DNA from: Bacteroidales bacterium
GTDB taxonomy: Bacteria > Bacteroidota > Bacteroidia > Bacteroidales > P3
Assembly: GCA_017480785.1 (NCBI GenBank)
Contig: JAFURZ010000015.1
Location: 1 to 47,374, forward strand
DNA length: 47,374 nt
Direction: 5' to 3'
The translations under genes were made by a program, and so were the position numbers. This document shows positions 3,168 through 47,247 of this stretch, piece by piece (position 1 is the stretch's first letter; the number at the start of each line of letters is the position of its first letter). The notes under the pieces were generated by a model that had not been told where the DNA came from, did no database searches, and saw nothing but the letters and a program-made list of their open reading frames with translations.

Positions 3168-4211
3168 TCAATCCTGACGGACAATTTCTTTCCAACATTG
3201 CGGGTCGGGGGCGAGCCAGGAGCGGTGGTAGCCATAGGCCACGGCGGGGCAGCCCCGGCAGAAACGCAGCAACTCGCAGCGCGAGCATTTCTCCATCCGC
3301 TCTTGCTGGCGGTAGAAGTCCATCTTCGGGCCTGTCCACACGTCGTACATGGGTTCTTCGACGCTGCCCACACGGCTTTCCATCCTGCGGCAGGCCATCA
3401 GTCGGCCTTCGGCCGAGATGGTGAAGTGGCAGTGGGCGCAGTTGCATCCGTCGTAGATGGTGTCTTCGGCAAGTCCTTCGGGTATCTTGAAGAGGCCGCG
3501 CTCGTGGAGGTAGAGCGTCCAGAGGTGGTCTTTCAGGTTGAAATAGGTGCCGCTGTCCTTGTACTGTTCATATTTCCGCCAGCAGCGGTCAAGCAGGTCG
3601 CGGTATCGCAGCGGCTCGATGTGCCAGCCACGGTCTGCCTTTGCCTTGTCCTCGCTGGTGGGGCAGTAGCGACCGAAAGCGAAGATGTCGGCGCGGTGTT
3701 CCACCACTATGTCTATCAGGTCGGGTATCTCGTCGATGTTTACGCCGCTGACGGTGGTCATCACCGCGCTGTCGATACCCGCCCGGCGCAGCGTGGCCAA
3801 TGCCTTCAGCGTGGCATCGAACGAACCCGGCTTGCGGAAGGCGTCGTGCGTCTCGCGCAGGCCGTCCAGCGAAAGCTGATACTTGCGGCAGCCCAAGGCT
3901 TTGAGCTTTGCACACACCTCGTCGGTGAGGTGGAACGGGTTGCCCATCAAGCAAAACGCAATATTGCGTCGGTGCACTTCCTCCATCAGGTCCCAGAAGC
4001 GACTGTGCAGGATAGGGTCGCCGCCGGTGATGTAGAGGTACGGCAGTCGCCCGATGCGGCGGGCCATATCCTCGATGTTGTCAAGCACACGCAGACATCT
4101 CCCGAAGGGCATCTCAACCAGTTGAGGATGCCCTTCTGAAAAGATGTAACAATGCTTGCAACGTTGGTCGCAAGCATCGGTGATGTGCCACTGGAATGCG
4201 AAGTAGTCCAC
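3168..4211 (-). CDS. Radical SAM/SPASM peptide maturase of an ACG-repeat RiPP
   Basis: 347 aa from GTG 4211. The radical SAM cluster motif CDQRCKHC (CxxxCxxC; Cys 14, 18 and 21) binds the [4Fe-4S] that cleaves S-adenosylmethionine. YITGGDP is the usual SAM-contact motif. The last about 100 residues hold a Cys-rich SPASM domain (CNCAHC, then CRRM, then CSRC, FCRGC and a final Cys) for auxiliary clusters. GTG is chosen because it lies 4 bases after the precursor stop; upstream codons in this frame only translate the precursor's repeats in another frame. The gene almost certainly acts on the adjacent Cys-repeat peptide. From memory this matches the NCBIfam 'radical SAM/SPASM, ACGX system' name. 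The modification is unknown, but thioether formation is plausible by analogy. Confidence 0.88.
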   Translation of the reverse strand: MDYFAFQWHITDACDQRCKHCYIFSEGHPQLVEMPFGRCLRVLDNIEDMARRIGRLPYLYITGGDPILHSRFWDLMEEVHRRNIAFCLMGNPFHLTDEVCAKLKALGCRKYQLSLDGLRETHDAFRKPGSFDATLKALATLRRAGIDSAVMTTVSGVNIDEIPDLIDIVVEHRADIFAFGRYCPTSEDKAKADRGWHIEPLRYRDLLDRCWRKYEQYKDSGTYFNLKDHLWTLYLHERGLFKIPEGLAEDTIYDGCNCAHCHFTISAEGRLMACRRMESRVGSVEEPMYDVWTGPKMDFYRQQERMEKCSRCELLRFCRGCPAVAYGYHRSWLAPDPQCWKEIVRQD

Positions 4212-4215
4212 GGGC

Positions 4216-4476
4216 TCACTTCTTGTCGCCAGCACCACAGGCACTGCCGCAGGCGGCAGGCTTTTCCTCTTTGGGCTTGTCGCCAGCACCACAAGCACTA
4301 CCGCAGGCGGCAGGCTTTTCCTCTTTGGGCTTGTCGCCAGCGCCACAAGCGCTACCGCAAGCGGCGGGTTTCTCGGCGGGCTTCTCGCCAGCGCCACAAG
4401 CAGTGCCACAAGGGGTGGCAACTGTGCGAATCATTCCCTGGGCCGTGTGGGCCATGTTCCAATCTGTACGTTTCAT
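4216..4476 (-). CDS. Cys-repeat RiPP precursor peptide (ACG repeats)
   Basis: 86 aa from ATG 4476 (MKRTDWNMAHTAQGM...). After a leader of about 22 residues come four repeats of [A/P]CG[S/T]ACGAG, separated by linkers such as DKPKEEKPA. This gives eight Cys in CxxxC pairs with Lys/Glu/Pro spacers, and the peptide ends GDKK. At DNA level the unit is about 54 bp. It lacks a signal peptide. It is translated just ahead of the radical SAM gene (stop TGA 4218-4216, GTG 4211), which is the usual substrate/maturase arrangement. The number of repeats may vary between strains. The mature product and any export system are not visible in the window. Confidence 0.82.
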   Translation of the reverse strand: MKRTDWNMAHTAQGMIRTVATPCGTACGAGEKPAEKPAACGSACGAGDKPKEEKPAACGSACGAGDKPKEEKPAACGSACGAGDKK

Positions 4477-17476: not shown

Positions 17477-17615
17477 ATTTCTAATTTTTGATTTCTAATT
17501 TCTAAGTGGTTTGCGCAGGCAGCGGCAGCCCACTTAGAATTTAGATTTCTAATTTTTGATTTCTAATTTCTAAGTGGTTTGCGCAGGCAGCGGCAGCCCA
17601 CTTAGAATTTAGAAT
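17477..17615. repeat. 68-bp tandem duplication with inverted arms
   Basis: A 68-bp unit beginning ATTTCTAATTTTTGATTT occurs at 17477 and again at 17545. Each unit carries heptamers (TTTCTAA) and a hairpin, CTAAGTGG with CCACTTAG around a GC-rich loop TGCGCAGGCAGCGGCA. The unit ends in TTAGAAT heptamers. It fills the gap between the TolC-like and HlyD-like genes, which are otherwise one operon. Confidence 0.88.
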
Positions 17616-19294: not shown

Positions 19295-19335
19295 GCTGTT
19301 CTTTTACTTTTCTAAAAGAACAGTAAAAGAACAGC
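19295..19335. repeat. Inverted 11-mer element, identical to 33082-33120
   Basis: GCTGTTCTTTTAC ... GTAAAAGAACAGC forms an inverted repeat. A 39-bp stretch (19295-19333) is identical, in reverse complement, to 33082-33120. Units of CAGTAAAAGAA repeat with an 11-bp period. It lies in the divergent gap between the tolC-like gene and the phosphofructokinase gene; the rest of 19164-19429 shows no gene. Confidence 0.85.
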
Positions 19336-19429
19336 AGAAGAAATACAGAAAAAATTGTTGCGGCAGGGCAATATTATCTCCCCCTATGCGTTGTAGACAT
19401 ATAAAGAATAATTAATAAATACCTGTTCT

Positions 19430-27733: not shown

Positions 27734-27816
27734 GTAAATAAAAATGAATTCCGTACAATATTTTCTAATATTTTATCAACACACCACCCCCAAAGGCCCT
27801 CTCCGGCCCCCTACAT

Positions 27817-27925
27817 CCTCCGCCATTTTTACGGTAGTATTACGCTAGTATTACGGTAGTATTACGCTTTTAAACCGTAATACTACCGTAATACTAGCGT
27901 AATACTACCGTAAAAATGGCGGAGG
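27817..27925. repeat. Perfect 50-bp inverted repeat built of 11-mers
   Basis: Left arm 27817-27866 and right arm 27876-27925 are exact reverse complements of 50 bp each, with a 9-nt loop CTTTTAAAC. Each arm holds 11-bp units (GGTAGTATTAC, GCTAGTATTAC, GGTAGTATTAC). It lies in the divergent gap between buk and the mltD-like gene. No T tract follows. Confidence 0.92.
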
Positions 27926-28026
27926 AAACCCTGGGAGATAAGGGGTTGGAACGGGACGGGGAGGGGAGGGTGCATCTTTTTTTTCGAGAGACATAATAAT
28001 AATTGAAGTTATGCGTTACAGAGGAC

Positions 28027-30175: not shown

Positions 30176-32128
30176 CTACATGAGTTCGTCGAGCTCCAGC
30201 CATCGAAGCTCTTTCTCGTCCAAGAGAGCCATCAGTTCGCCGATGCGGGAGCTGACACGGGTGATTTCGGCGGGGTCGGTCATGGTGCCTTCGGAGAGCT
30301 TTTGTTCCAGGGTGGCTTTCTCTGCCGTGAGGGCTTCAATCTCGGCGGTGAGCGCTTCGTATTCCTTCTGCTCCTTGTAGGTGGGCTTGCGCTTCTCGCT
30401 CTTACTGCGCTCATACTTGGGCTTCTCTGTACGCTGCTGCAGGGTGGTCTCGCGCTGTTGCTGCGCTTTCTGCATACGGTAGGCCGTGTAGTTGCTGTGG
30501 TAGTCCTTTATCTTACCCTTGCCCTCGAAGACAAAGATGTGGTCGACGATGTGGTCCATGAAGGAGCGGTCGTGGGAGACGATGACGAGGCACCCCTTGT
30601 AGGTCTGGAGGAACTGCTCGAGTATCTGCAAGGTGTAGATGTCGAGGTCGTTGGTGGGCTCGTCGAGGATGAGGAAATTGGGGTTGGCCATCAGCACCTG
30701 CAGCAGGTAGAGCCGGCGCTTCTCGCCGCCGCTGAGGTTGCCGAAGTAGTTGTACTGTGTGGTGCCGTCGAAGCCGAAGTAGGTGAGGAACTGGTGGGCC
30801 GACATGCTTTTGCCGTTGTCGAGTTCTATCTCCTCGGCGATGTCTTTCACCAGGTCGATGACGCGGCGGTCGGCGGGTGCCGACATGCCGGCCTGGGTGT
30901 AGTAGCCGAACTGGATGGTCTGGCCCACTATCACTCGGCCCGAGGTGGGCTTCAGCCGCTCGGTGATGATGTTGAGGAAGGTACTCTTGCCCACACCGTT
31001 GGGTCCCACGATGCCTATCTTCTCGCCGCGCTTGAAGACGTAGGAGAAGTCGTCGATTAAAGCCTCACCCCCAGCCCCTCTCCGATTGGAGAGGGGAGTG
31101 GATACCCCTTGCATACTACCCCCCTCTCCAATCGGAGAGGGGCTGGGGGTGAGGCTGATGTTGTAGAGTTCGAGGATTTTTCCGCCGATGCGCTCGGTCT
31201 TGACGGTGAGTTGGGGGCGACTGTCGTCGAAGCGGGTATGGGCCTTGGCTTCGAGTTCGTAGAAGGCGTCGATGCGGGCCTGTGCCTTGGTGCCGCGGGC
31301 CTGTGGCATGCGGCGCATCCACTCCAGCTCGGTGCGGTAGAGGCTGCGGGCCTTCTCCACCTCGGCGCGCTCGTTGGCTTCGCGCTCGGCCTTCTTCTCG
31401 AGGTAATAGTCGTAGTGACCGCGGTAATGATAGAGGCGGGCGTTGTCGAGCTCGTAGATATTGTCGCAGACGTTGTCGAGGAAGTAGCGGTCGTGGGTGA
31501 CCATGAGGATGGCCAGCCGCTGGCGCGAGAGGAAGTCCTCGAGCCACTCAATCATGTCGATGTCGAGGTGGTTGGTGGGCTCGTCGAGAATGAGCAGATT
31601 GCAGTCGTCGATGAGCAGACGGCAGAGGGCCACCTTCTTCTGCTCGCCGCCGCTGAGGGTATCCATCGGCCGGTCGAGCAGGTGGTCCACCTTCATTCGC
31701 GAGAGTATCTCCTCCATGCGCTGCTCGAAGGTCCACTCGTCCTCGGTCTCGGGGCGCTGGACGCTGTAGACTAGGTCTCTGACCAGCCACACCCCCGCCC
31801 CTCTCCGATTGGAGAGGGGAGTGGATACCCCATGCATGCTACTCCCCTCTCCAATCGGAGAGGGGTTGGGGGTGAGGCCGCCTTGCGGCAGATAGGCCAG
31901 CTTCAGGTCGCCGCGGAAGGTTATCTTGCCGCTGTCCTGCAGGGTGTTGTAGCCGCGCTCGCCGTAGGCGGTCATCAGGATATTGAGCAAGGTGGACTTG
32001 CCGTAGCCGTTGCGGGCGATGAGGGCCGACTTCTGTCCGGCGTTGATGCCGAAAGATATGTTTTCAAAGAGGAGCTTGTCGCCAAAACTCTTGGTGAGGT
32101 TTTCTACGGTGAGGAGTGCGTCGGCCAT
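30176..32128 (-). CDS. ABC-F family ATPase (Uup-like) with two repeat-encoded insertions
   Basis: 650 aa from ATG 32128; the TTG at 32134 is not favoured. Two ATPase domains: RNGYGKST, LSGGEQKK, LLILDEPTNHLD; and GPNGVGKST, LSGGEKRR, FLILDEPTNDLD. The C-terminal coiled coil (EYEALTAEIEALTAEKATLEQKL, given as residues about 580-605) is typical of Uup, a soluble protein that acts at the ribosome or on DNA. Residues about 84-115 and a similar stretch in the middle (before LIDDFSYVFKRGE) read [N/S]PSPIGEGxSMxGVSTPLSN and RRGAG. They are encoded by two copies of a 92-bp palindromic element and interrupt normal strand regions of the ATPase. The gene overlaps no neighbour but follows the hexapeptide gene closely. 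Confidence 0.9.
   Translation of the reverse strand: MADALLTVENLTKSFGDKLLFENISFGINAGQKSALIARNGYGKSTLLNILMTAYGERGYNTLQDSGKITFRGDLKLAYLPQGGLTPNPSPIGEGSSMHGVSTPLSNRRGAGVWLVRDLVYSVQRPETEDEWTFEQRMEEILSRMKVDHLLDRPMDTLSGGEQKKVALCRLLIDDCNLLILDEPTNHLDIDMIEWLEDFLSRQRLAILMVTHDRYFLDNVCDNIYELDNARLYHYRGHYDYYLEKKAEREANERAEVEKARSLYRTELEWMRRMPQARGTKAQARIDAFYELEAKAHTRFDDSRPQLTVKTERIGGKILELYNISLTPSPSPIGEGGSMQGVSTPLSNRRGAGGEALIDDFSYVFKRGEKIGIVGPNGVGKSTFLNIITERLKPTSGRVIVGQTIQFGYYTQAGMSAPADRRVIDLVKDIAEEIELDNGKSMSAHQFLTYFGFDGTTQYNYFGNLSGGEKRRLYLLQVLMANPNFLILDEPTNDLDIYTLQILEQFLQTYKGCLVIVSHDRSFMDHIVDHIFVFEGKGKIKDYHSNYTAYRMQKAQQQRETTLQQRTEKPKYERSKSEKRKPTYKEQKEYEALTAEIEALTAEKATLEQKLSEGTMTDPAEITRVSSRIGELMALLDEKELRWLELDELM
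31063..31154. repeat. 92-bp palindromic element inside the ABC-F gene, copy 1
   Basis: The element begins CCTCACCCCCAGCCCCTCTC and ends as its reverse complement. Each arm itself carries CCCCTCTCC and GGAGAGGGG around a GATT/AATC turn, so the RNA could fold as a three-arm structure. It is read in frame on the minus strand. Confidence 0.93.
31787..31877. repeat. 91-bp palindromic element inside the ABC-F gene, copy 2
   Basis: Same arms and core as 31063-31154, with a few changes (for example CATGCATGCTACT in the centre rather than TTGCATACTACC). Same frame, same encoded peptide apart from two or three residues. Confidence 0.93.
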
Positions 32129-33060: not shown

Positions 33061-33120
33061 CTTTTACAGTTGTTCTATTAGTGTTCTTTTACTGTTCTTT
33101 TAGAAAAGTAAAAGAACAGC
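33061..33120. repeat. 11-mer array with inverted end
   Basis: Units CTTTTACAGTT, GTTCTATTAGT, GTTCTTTTACT and GTTCTTTTAGA (33061-33104), then AAAAGTAAAAGAACAGC in inverse. 33082-33120 matches 19295-19333 exactly in reverse complement. It fills the gap between the DUF1232 and reductase genes. Confidence 0.88.
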
Positions 33121-33136
33121 GGTTAATCAGTTGATT

Positions 33137-35500
33137 TTAAGCAGGGTTTCCCAGTGCCTCCATGATGGCCTTTGCGGCCTTGCGGCCGGCACCCATGGCG
33201 AGGATGACCGTGGCGGCGCCGCTGACGGCGTCGCCGCCGGCGAAGATGAGTTTGCGGCTGGTCTGGCCGTTCTCGTCGGCTTTGATGCCGCCCCAGGGCT
33301 CGCACTCCAGGCCCGGCGTGGTGGTGCGGATGAGGGGGTTGGGACTGGTGCCGAGGGCGGCGACGATGGTGTCGGCTTCCACGTCCACCTCGCTGCCTTC
33401 GATGGCCTTGAAGCTGCGGCGGCCCTTCTCGTCGGGGGCGCCCATCTCCATCTTCACGCAGCGCAGGGCGCGGGCGGTGCCGTCCTCGTTGCCGAGGATC
33501 TCGACCGGCGCGGTCTGGAACATGAACTGCACGCCCTCCTCCATGGCGTGGTGCACCTCTTCGCGGCGGGCGGGCATGTCCATCTCGCCACGGCGGTAGA
33601 CCACCGTCACCTCGCTGCCCAGTCGCAGGGCCGTGCGGGCGGCGTCCATGGCCACGTTGCCGCCACCGACGACGATGACCTTCTTACCGAGGTAGATGGG
33701 AGTGTCGTACTGCTCGTCGTAGCCGTGCATGAGGTTGGTGCGCGTCAGCAGCTCGTTGGCACTGATGACGCCGATGAGGGTCTCGCCCTTGACGCCCATG
33801 AACTTGGGCAGGCCGGCGCCGCTGGCGATATAGACGGCGTCGTATTCCATCTCGCTGAAGAGCTGGTCGATGGTGATGCTCTTGCCGATGATGACGTTGG
33901 TGCGTATCTCGACGCCCAGACGGCGCAGGTTCTCGATTTCGGGCTCCACTACGCGCTGCTTGGGCAGGCGGAATTCGGGGATGCCGTAGACGAGCACGCC
34001 GCCGGCATGGTGCAGGGCCTCGAAGACGGTGACTTGGAAGCCGTGTTTGGCTAGGTCTCCGGCGCAGGTGAGGCCGCTGGGGCCGCTGCCCACCACCGCC
34101 ACCTTGCGGCCGGCGGGGTAGCACTGGCTCTGCGGCTTCGACTGGGCGCGGTGGTTGTCGGCCACGAAGCGCTCCAGGGCGCCGATGGCTATGGGCTCGT
34201 TCTTGACGCCCATCACGCAGCTGCCCTCGCACTGCGTCTCCTGCGGGCAGACGCGGCCGCAGACGGCTGGCAGCGCCGAGTCGTGGCTGATGGTGATATA
34301 GGCCTGGTTGAAGTTCTCTTCCTTGATATTCTGGATGAAGCGCGGGATGTTGATACCCACGGGACAGGCCTCGACGCAGCGCGGCTTCTTGCACTGCAGG
34401 CAGCGGCCCGCCTCGACGATGGCCTGGTGCTCGGTGAGGCCGAAGGAGACCTCGTCGAAGTTATGGGCTCTTACAGAAGGCTCTTGCTCTCTTGGTTTCT
34501 GTCTTTTTTTGTTGCAATCAGAACCATCAGAATTTTCTTTTTGTACTTTTAGTTCTGATTGAGATTTGATTTGCGCATCCACGGCAGGTGCCAGATTGCA
34601 CGTGTGCCCGCTCTCGGCGGTGGCAATGCGGTAGCGCCGCGCGTCCGGGGTCTTCAGCTTGCGGGCGGCCTCGTCGAAGTCCACCAGGTGGCCGTCGAAC
34701 TCAGGTCCGTCGACGCAGCAGAACTTCACCTCGTCGCCGACCCTTACTCGGCAGGCGCCGCACATGCCCGTGCCGTCCACCATCATGCAGTTGAGGCTCA
34801 CGATGGTCGGCAGGTTGTATTTCTTGGTGGTCAGCGAGACGAACTTCATCATCGGCAGGGGCCCGATGGCCACGCAGTGGCTGTACTCTACGCCCTTGGA
34901 GCAGAGCTCGTCCACCTTGGCGGTGACGAGGCCTTGCTCGCCGTAGGTGCCGTCGTCGGTCATGATATGCAGGTTGTTGCAAACGGCCCGCAGCTCGTCC
35001 TCGTAGAAGAGGAGGTCCTTCGAGCGGGCTCCGATGACCACGTCGGTCGGTATGCCGTTGCGGAAAGCCCACTTCACCTGCGGGAACACCGGCGCGATGC
35101 CCACGCCGCCAGCCACGAATAGCAAGCGTTTAATTTTTATGCAATCAGAACTATCAGAACCATCAGAATTTTCTTTTCGTTCTTTTAGTTCTGATTGAGA
35201 TTGAATATTCAGCAATTCGCTGGGCTTGCCCAAGGGTCCCACGATGGTGTAGAGGTCGTCGCCCACCTCCATCGCTGCCAGCTGCCGCGTGGTCTCGCCC
35301 ACCACCTGGAACACCAGCACAATCGACTGCCGCTGGTAGACGATGTCGCTGATGGTGAGCGGTATGCGCTCGCCGTTAGGGTGGGGGATGACGATGACGA
35401 ACTGGCCCGGCTTGCCGCTGAGCGATATCCACGGCGCATGGACCTCCATCTGGTAAATCTCGTGGCTGTTGAGCAGCCGCTTGCTGATAATCTCGTACAT
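33137..35500 (-). CDS. Fused NfnAB/GltA-type flavin iron-sulfur oxidoreductase
   Basis: 787 aa. Residues 1 to about 290 are a ferredoxin-NADP reductase/PyrK-like part: RIPLTIS (FAD), FVAGGVGIAPV (NAD), and CMMVDGTGMCGACRV for a [2Fe-2S] cluster. Residues about 340-787 are the small-subunit-like part: CLQCKKPRCVEACP and CGRVCPQETQCEGSC ([4Fe-4S]), VVGSGPSGLTCAGDLAKHG (FAD) and VVGGGNVAMDAARTALRLG (NADPH). It fits an electron-bifurcating NADH-ferredoxin:NADP oxidoreductase or glutamate-synthase-like fusion. Residues about 98-123 and a stretch near 310-335 (SQSELK, KENSDGSD) are extra and come from two copies of one repeat. Confidence 0.9.
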   Translation of the reverse strand: MYEIISKRLLNSHEIYQMEVHAPWISLSGKPGQFVIVIPHPNGERIPLTISDIVYQRQSIVLVFQVVGETTRQLAAMEVGDDLYTIVGPLGKPSELLNIQSQSELKERKENSDGSDSSDCIKIKRLLFVAGGVGIAPVFPQVKWAFRNGIPTDVVIGARSKDLLFYEDELRAVCNNLHIMTDDGTYGEQGLVTAKVDELCSKGVEYSHCVAIGPLPMMKFVSLTTKKYNLPTIVSLNCMMVDGTGMCGACRVRVGDEVKFCCVDGPEFDGHLVDFDEAARKLKTPDARRYRIATAESGHTCNLAPAVDAQIKSQSELKVQKENSDGSDCNKKRQKPREQEPSVRAHNFDEVSFGLTEHQAIVEAGRCLQCKKPRCVEACPVGINIPRFIQNIKEENFNQAYITISHDSALPAVCGRVCPQETQCEGSCVMGVKNEPIAIGALERFVADNHRAQSKPQSQCYPAGRKVAVVGSGPSGLTCAGDLAKHGFQVTVFEALHHAGGVLVYGIPEFRLPKQRVVEPEIENLRRLGVEIRTNVIIGKSITIDQLFSEMEYDAVYIASGAGLPKFMGVKGETLIGVISANELLTRTNLMHGYDEQYDTPIYLGKKVIVVGGGNVAMDAARTALRLGSEVTVVYRRGEMDMPARREEVHHAMEEGVQFMFQTAPVEILGNEDGTARALRCVKMEMGAPDEKGRRSFKAIEGSEVDVEADTIVAALGTSPNPLIRTTTPGLECEPWGGIKADENGQTSRKLIFAGGDAVSGAATVILAMGAGRKAAKAIMEALGNPA
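34514..34567. repeat. In-frame repeat inside the NfnAB/GltA-type gene, copy 1
   Basis: GCAATCAGAAC...GTTCTGATTGAGATT, with inverted ends CAATCAGAAC and GTTCTGATT(G) and 9-bp CAGAACCAT-like units. The encoded peptide is IKSQSELKVQKENSDGSD. A second copy is at 35140-35205. Confidence 0.88.
35140..35205. repeat. In-frame repeat inside the NfnAB/GltA-type gene, copy 2
   Basis: Same ends and core as copy 1, with one more 9-bp unit (CAGAACTAT, CAGAACCAT). Same frame; the peptide is IQSQSELKERKENSDGSDSS. It falls between the FAD and NAD halves of the reductase domain, where a loop could be tolerated. Confidence 0.88.
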
Positions 35501-47128: not shown

Positions 47129-47161
47129 TTGTTCTTTTATTGTTCTTTTACTGTTCTTTTA
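47129..47161. repeat. 11-mer array, TGTTCTTTTA type
   Basis: TTGTTCTTTTA, TTGTTCTTTTA, CTGTTCTTTTA: three 11-bp units. The 11-mer matches the arrays at 19295 and 33061. Two CGAAGAAC-type units follow at about 47175-47200, like those at 3106. 46902-47247 has no gene I can support. Confidence 0.82.
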
Positions 47162-47247
47162 CAAAAAGCGTAAAACTACCGAAGAACAACCGAAGAACAC
47201 CCAGAGGATGTGGCGGGTGGAGGAGAGCCCAAGGGGGCGGCGGGGCG

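Follow-up and report, generated by a model that had tools for sequence, protein, structure and literature searches.

A dispersed palindromic element lying in frame within protein genes of a Bacteroidales genome and its relatives

REPINs are inverted pairs of repeat units with a central spacer, found in many copies per genome, and the best-known palindromes lying in frame within protein genes are those of Rickettsia and a small number of other genomes. Rickettsia palindromic elements (RPEs) and the Wolbachia WPEs are described as palindromes of about 100-150 bp that sit in frame in unrelated genes; at or close to one position, orthologues may carry elements of different types, and the inserts occupy solvent-exposed areas (PMC10969869; PMC3767692). 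A further source describes intragenic GTAG/CGTC REPs in O. terrae, R. conorii, Thauera and others, as single or dimer units that sometimes occur twice per gene; the targets include uvrA (twice in one gene), a UvrD/REP helicase and truB, with TruB named as a palindrome target in R. conorii, and it places most REPs between genes and lists CGTC repeats in Bacteroidetes (PMC3733652). MITEs are characterised as short elements with inverted ends that are able to make in-frame fusions (PMC10969869). We found no report of a coding palindrome family of this kind from Bacteroidales in searches of the open-licence literature.

The window, that is, the whole stretch of 47,374 nucleotides that was analysed, holds an ABC-F ATPase gene that carries two copies of a palindromic element (Table 1); the solved structures closest to its product are those of EttA, both by sequence and by fold, and Uup also scores high. 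The initial annotation had described the two copies as near-identical, strongly palindromic and read in frame, and this is borne out: they lie within 1-2 bases of where it had put them, share 94% identity over 87 nt, have arms that are 97% and 94% complementary, and read without a stop within the ORF. It had also placed one copy in the first ATPase domain and the other before the second; copy 2 lies in NBD1 and copy 1 at the start of NBD2. The coding-strand RNA of copies 1 and 2 is predicted to fold at -94.7 and -81.6 kcal/mol (z-scores -13.5 and -10.9), with none of 200 shuffles as low for either copy.

Table 1. Coordinates, within the window, of the ABC-F gene, its two inserts and other repeats.
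Feature	Position	Strand	Description
ABC-F ATPase gene, EttA/Uup-like, 652 aa	30176-32134	minus	Pfam ABC_tran (2 stretches), ABC_tran_Xtn, ABC_tran_CTD; carries both inserts
Palindromic element copy 1, 94 nt	31062-31155	minus	Start of NBD2 (site 2); encodes SLTPSPSPIGEGGSMQGVSTPLSNRRGAGGEA
Palindromic element copy 2, 93 nt	31786-31878	minus	NBD1, directly after LAYLPQ (site 1); encodes GLTPNPSPIGEGSSMHGVSTPLSNRRGAGVWL
Gene containing second repeat family	33137-35500	minus	Fer4_20, Pyr_redox_2
Second repeat family	34517-34566, 35140-35205		Reads QSELKxxKENSDGSD in frame
Palindrome	27816-27926		55-nt arms, 98% complementary, 1 nt between
Third repeat (TGTTCTTTTACT...)	19295-19353, 33062-33120, 47132-47166		Inverted copies 86-89% alike
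Tandem repeat	4210-4418		~54 nt, 4 copies
Tandem repeat	17477-17612		Two identical 68-bp copies

Several other repeats were noticed in the window (Table 1), among them a second family with 36 overlapping matches in its own genome (E <=0.001), including an array at C8:56004-56588 with a spacing of 105 bp.

Both ABC-F copies consist of two inverted half-units of ~39 nt flanking a short centre, and the 94-bp element as a whole can be written as two half-repeats placed head to head around ~20 nt. The half-repeat unit has the form RGCCTCACCCCCnnCCCCTCTCC-NNNN-GGAGAGGGG, every half-unit has its own hairpin (CCCCTCTCC-GATT-GGAGAGGGG), and the element ends in terminal inverted repeats (RGCCTCAC...GTGAGGCY). 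Most copies are stop-free in the favoured phase and, in an element this near to symmetry, a similar peptide is read in either orientation; for these two reasons it suits insertion into genes. With this near-symmetry, an argument of the initial annotation, namely that two insertions with the same direction suggest selection for the open orientation, is not supported as it was put, because direction here refers only to the ~20-nt centre. Its assumption that the two insertions were independent is also weakened: both carry the hairpin loop common in this genome, and conversion or local copying would fit as well.

Searching the genome with copy 1 as query gave at least 114 matches, counting both strands and overlaps, with 40 of the 49 candidates scored. 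In the scanned parts of the 2.25-Mb genome (24 stretches and the window), 80 half-units merged into 52 places, of which 28 show the inverted-pair arrangement (18 compact pairs, with a spacer of up to 40 nt, and 10 long-spacer pairs) and 24 are single units; one place, C13:15397, is probably a chance match. Elsewhere in the genus, the family is present in at least 22 of the 119 other genomes at E <=1e-6 (at least 23 of 120 including this one), so that the prospect raised by the initial annotation, of an element that occurs nowhere else, can be set aside. The exact pattern CCTCACCCCNNNCCCCTCTCC occurs in 25 of 295 genomes of the order, with the highest count in this genome (53) and the next at 50; the reversed control pattern gave 0 among the order-genome rows listed. 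Phage records held no family match and a plasmid collection yielded a single matching record, a Prevotella replicon with a 39-nt match, and a phage or plasmid carrier was rejected on these grounds. A reading of the inserts as simple native linkers was likewise rejected, the insert DNA being a dispersed repeat.

Compact copies of this family lie nearly all in frame within genes. A place was called in frame when a stop-free frame passed through the element with at least 50 codons on each side and coding-like codon use. Under this strict rule, which breaks up 5 of the 18 compact pairs of this genome into halves and drops places less than 160 bases from the end of a stretch, 12 of 13 compact pairs in this genome were in frame in a gene, as were 15 of 16 from 16 other genomes; looser matching, which admitted spurious half-units, gave 16/18 and 17/19. 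The exceptions in this genome are the C4 ORF and a PagL-like ORF, whose frames are open and whose codon scores are weak, and those elsewhere are one pair each in G098 and G064, called intergenic. An open frame is expected for ~0.19 of random genic insertions and was seen in 27 of 29, far above that figure, with rows that are not independent. Furthermore, where both phases were open, the xLTP phase was used in 18 of 20 cases and ASPP in 2 (13 of 15 for xLTP when counted by gene family); P-values for phase and open frame are illustrative, again given the non-independence of rows. Of the initial annotation's case for selection, the in-frame placement and the preference for one codon phase are supported, and the argument from direction is not.

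Other arrangements are in frame less often. By the strict rule, long-spacer pairs were in frame in a gene in 2 of 6 cases here and 4 of 14 in other genomes (14 of 20 in total were not called genic), and for single units the figures were 20 of 31 and 25 of 54 (which leaves 40 of the 85 half-unit places without a genic call; the rule missed three of four UvrA halves that the alignment puts in the gene). Between the arms of the long-spacer pairs (54-95 nt) lie intergenic stretches or host segments, and in several of the pairs inspected the arms abut start or stop codons. At L024 (3136-3270 and 5254-5386), L203, L219 and L237, for example, the pairs bracket AT-rich intergenic stretches, with a similar centre in the two L024 copies; their half-units abut stop codons or sit near start codons, and at the last three loci one half-unit follows an apparent signal-peptide stretch.

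The initial annotation had suggested a genome-wide count with genic share and frame as a check. In the stretches counted here, 40 of the 52 own-genome places fall in 22 genes (assigned by hand, with the GNAT/YceG region, 3 places, and DUF6266, 2 places, uncertain), and the remaining 12 are intergenic, ambiguous or probably chance. Thirteen genes hold two or more places, compared with a mean of 0.59 under random placement over 1900 genes; leaving out the two uncertain ones, the figures are 11 of 20 genes and 0.45 expected. By Pfam, the targets in this genome are TruB, UvrA (whose gene carries four half-units), an oligopeptide ABC ATPase, a Radical_SAM_N protein (of the YgiQ type), NqrA, a UvrD_C_2/HRDC helicase, DUF6266, TsaD, a transglutaminase, ETF, an SF1-type helicase, a hexosaminidase-like protein, CobW, PagL, GH2, CinA, A2M, a glycosyltransferase, a PKD/Por_Secre_tail protein and ABC-F; the GNAT/YceG region carries the element in an uncertain frame, and the C4 ORF has no Pfam match. 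In relatives, the 38 ORFs scanned include MutS2, CinA, TsaD (2 genomes), RsgA, D-ala-D-ala ligase, a PrmC-type methyltransferase, an MsbA-like ABC protein and M20 peptidases, together with several that lack a family match.

Where position in the protein was considered, in three proteins, the inserts fall in disordered segments of a model (ABC-F) or at variable loops in alignments (TsaD, UvrA), and in most relatives the insert is absent or a short loop stands in its place. The ABC-F alignment comprised 81 rows, reduced to 70 by dropping 11 duplicates, of which 4 could not be read at site 1 and a further 2 were unreadable for site 2, in part probably from trimming; the named relatives closest by this protein (80 best kept) are Bacteroidales MAGs, many of them from ruminants. 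Of the 66 rows that can be read at site 1, only the one from this genome shows the element there. The second site (LELYNI to LIDDF) has a short linker in most of 68 readable rows and is a hot spot: several sister species have other insertions there, and L044 has a peptide of the same kind as the palindrome insert. Among the sister-species rows, different insertions fill the site 2 linker in L045-L048, L116, L123 and L148, some of them repeat-like (CVNASMRQC..., VVQGVQ...CTPCTPRT). At both sites, the inserts take the place of linker residues and are not simply added. The AlphaFold model (41 sequences; mean pLDDT 82, pTM 0.68) has three segments with pLDDT <50, at residues 87-111, 331-353 and 572-577, and the first two, which are the long disordered segments of the predicted structure, fall within the inserts. 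The TsaD loop holds palindrome-like inserts in this genome, in G004 and G135 and, judged by peptide, in G007; G001 has another insertion there, and most other relatives have a few residues; each of the four UvrA inserts is within a variable loop. The initial annotation had put forward a comparison with ABC-F genes of sister strains; sister species carry related or other insertions at the same positions in both ABC-F and TsaD.

Our preferred reading, to which we assign a probability of roughly 0.8, is that the palindrome is a non-autonomous dispersed element built of half-repeats, copies of which insert into genes and are retained chiefly if their codon phase and position permit the ribosome to read through them as an unstructured protein loop rich in Pro, Gly and Ser. 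In ABC-F, two copies would have replaced short variable linkers, one in NBD1 and one at the start of NBD2. Such a history would involve transposition-like copying by a trans-acting enzyme, the removal of out-of-frame copies by purifying selection, translation of the insert peptides and modified proteins that keep their normal function.

A tentative alternative, which we think possible, is that these are old, vertically inherited coding palindromes that no longer move and are homogenised in place by gene conversion, so that copies drift to a common loop. Across ten sets of element-bearing genes, sites are shared between species in CinA (this genome and G004), the glycosyltransferase (with G001, G004 and G137), the transglutaminase (with G001) and TsaD (with G004 and G135), and in the hexosaminidase-like gene the left half is present in 6 of 6 at one site. 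Given that many sites are shared, much of the pattern may be old, and at the transglutaminase and one hexosaminidase site the sequence between the halves is host protein common to the species, which argues for descent there. The hairpin loop is GATT in 56 of 75 own units, whereas other loops occur in most units of most relatives, even at shared sites (CinA, TsaD). On the other hand, re-insertion at tolerant loops would give the same picture, and the TsaD copies use different codon phases; some sites are not shared (oligopeptide ABC site 1, the GH2 sites), the ABC-F site 1 copy is peculiar to this genome among the readable rows, and GATT also occurs in G137 (4/12 units) and G010 (1/1). Correction between the arms of a hairpin was considered and found weak, as loops match within 6 of 24 pairs in other genomes, where shuffling gives 3.1 on average and reaches that number in 38 of 2000 runs. 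Judged from these sequences, shared sites with genome-specific loops would reflect either homogenisation within a genome or re-invasion of tolerant loops. A more speculative and rather doubtful reading is that the coding palindromes of the genus evolve in concert, with the same protein loops occupied across species and each genome overwriting or re-seeding its own hairpin variant, such that peptide tags in unrelated proteins change together; truB, uvrA and uvrD-like genes being hit by unrelated palindromes in Rickettsia, in other bacteria and here might then point to a common insertion route through genes, beyond tolerance alone.

It is rather unlikely that the element is of the REPIN type without the usual tag and is moved in trans by a Y1 (HUH, RAYT-like) transposase of the genome. 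The genome has three Y1_Tnp genes, each with other inverted repeats nearby, and REPs, too, are described as having neighbouring units of opposite orientation (PMC3733652). But of the 33 Y1_Tnp loci covered here, drawn from the genome and its relatives (out of 37 matches; some of the loci short), not one is flanked by the element; occasional loose matches to portions of the unit were judged to be chance, and a RAYT link was looked for and not found. Moreover, 7 of 22 element-bearing relatives, some of them incomplete genomes, gave no Y1_Tnp match, including G064, which is 94% complete and has the element at at least 7 places, and the conserved tag is absent: among 93 own unit matches, GTAG occurs in 15 at the inner and 2 at the outer side, and CGTC in 0 and 1. 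The three loci (L081, L082, L083) have inverted repeats of their own close by, of the types GCCCCG(T/C)AGGGGCGA and CCGTGGG...CCCACGG at L082 and L083, and their transposases may be RAYTs with their own REPs. Of the REP- or MITE-like mobile origin proposed in the initial annotation, the dispersed repeat is supported and membership of either class, as stated, is not: the tag is lacking, no Y1 gene among the 33 loci is flanked by the element, no target-site duplication was identified, and in ABC-F linker residues were replaced. That the inserts have been co-opted, as selected loops that tune the host protein, seems quite improbable: some sites do persist across species and the same loop is used by different insertions in ABC-F and TsaD, yet the ABC-F peptides are predicted to be disordered, the peptide changes as the DNA family does, and an insert is missing from most orthologues compared. 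Ribosomes might instead bypass the mRNA hairpins, in a manner likened to byp-like hopping, so that no peptide is made; the hairpins are very stable (-81.6 to -94.7 kcal/mol), but bypass needs neither the preserved frame nor the freedom from stops that compact copies show in the frame used, and we regard it as highly improbable. Finally, an assembly or binning artefact, for which one could cite a draft genome of 19 contigs, was rejected and has a negligible chance of being correct, since the copies have sequence differences and unrelated flanks, and the family occurs in other genomes of the genus, in part at identical sites.

With its many sequenced species, this Bacteroidales genus of ruminant-gut type lends itself to broad comparisons on the entry of selfish DNA into proteins, on tolerant loops and on the possible use of inserts. 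There is also a practical side for annotation: homology searches can be led astray by the insert peptides, which turn up in proteins unrelated to one another.

Compared with known systems, the family resembles MITEs in being short and having terminal inverted repeats, and may differ from them, as no parental IS (the search covered Y1_Tnp only), target-site duplication or empty site at the DNA level was identified. Like REPINs, it has units in inverted pairs and many copies; unlike REPIN/RAYT systems, it flanks no Y1 gene in the loci examined. With the GTAG/CGTC REPs it has in common short palindromic units, single or paired, and hits in uvrA, a UvrD-type helicase and truB, whereas its compact pairs are nearly all genic and REPs are described as mostly intergenic (PMC3733652). 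In contrast to RPEs, the present family belongs to an unrelated host group, is GC-rich and 94 bp long, and has modular half-units and a genome-specific loop; the ATGAC/GTCAT motif (ATGAC of RPE-4/6/7) is found in 0 of 93 own unit matches and 1 of 124 in other genomes. The likeness lies in a palindromic repeat in frame in unrelated protein genes, with TruB as a target in both. Intragenic REPs and RPEs appear to be the closest kind, the similarity to RPEs being judged from descriptions, and we consider the case for RPE-like coding palindromes outside Rickettsia to be real and well supported.
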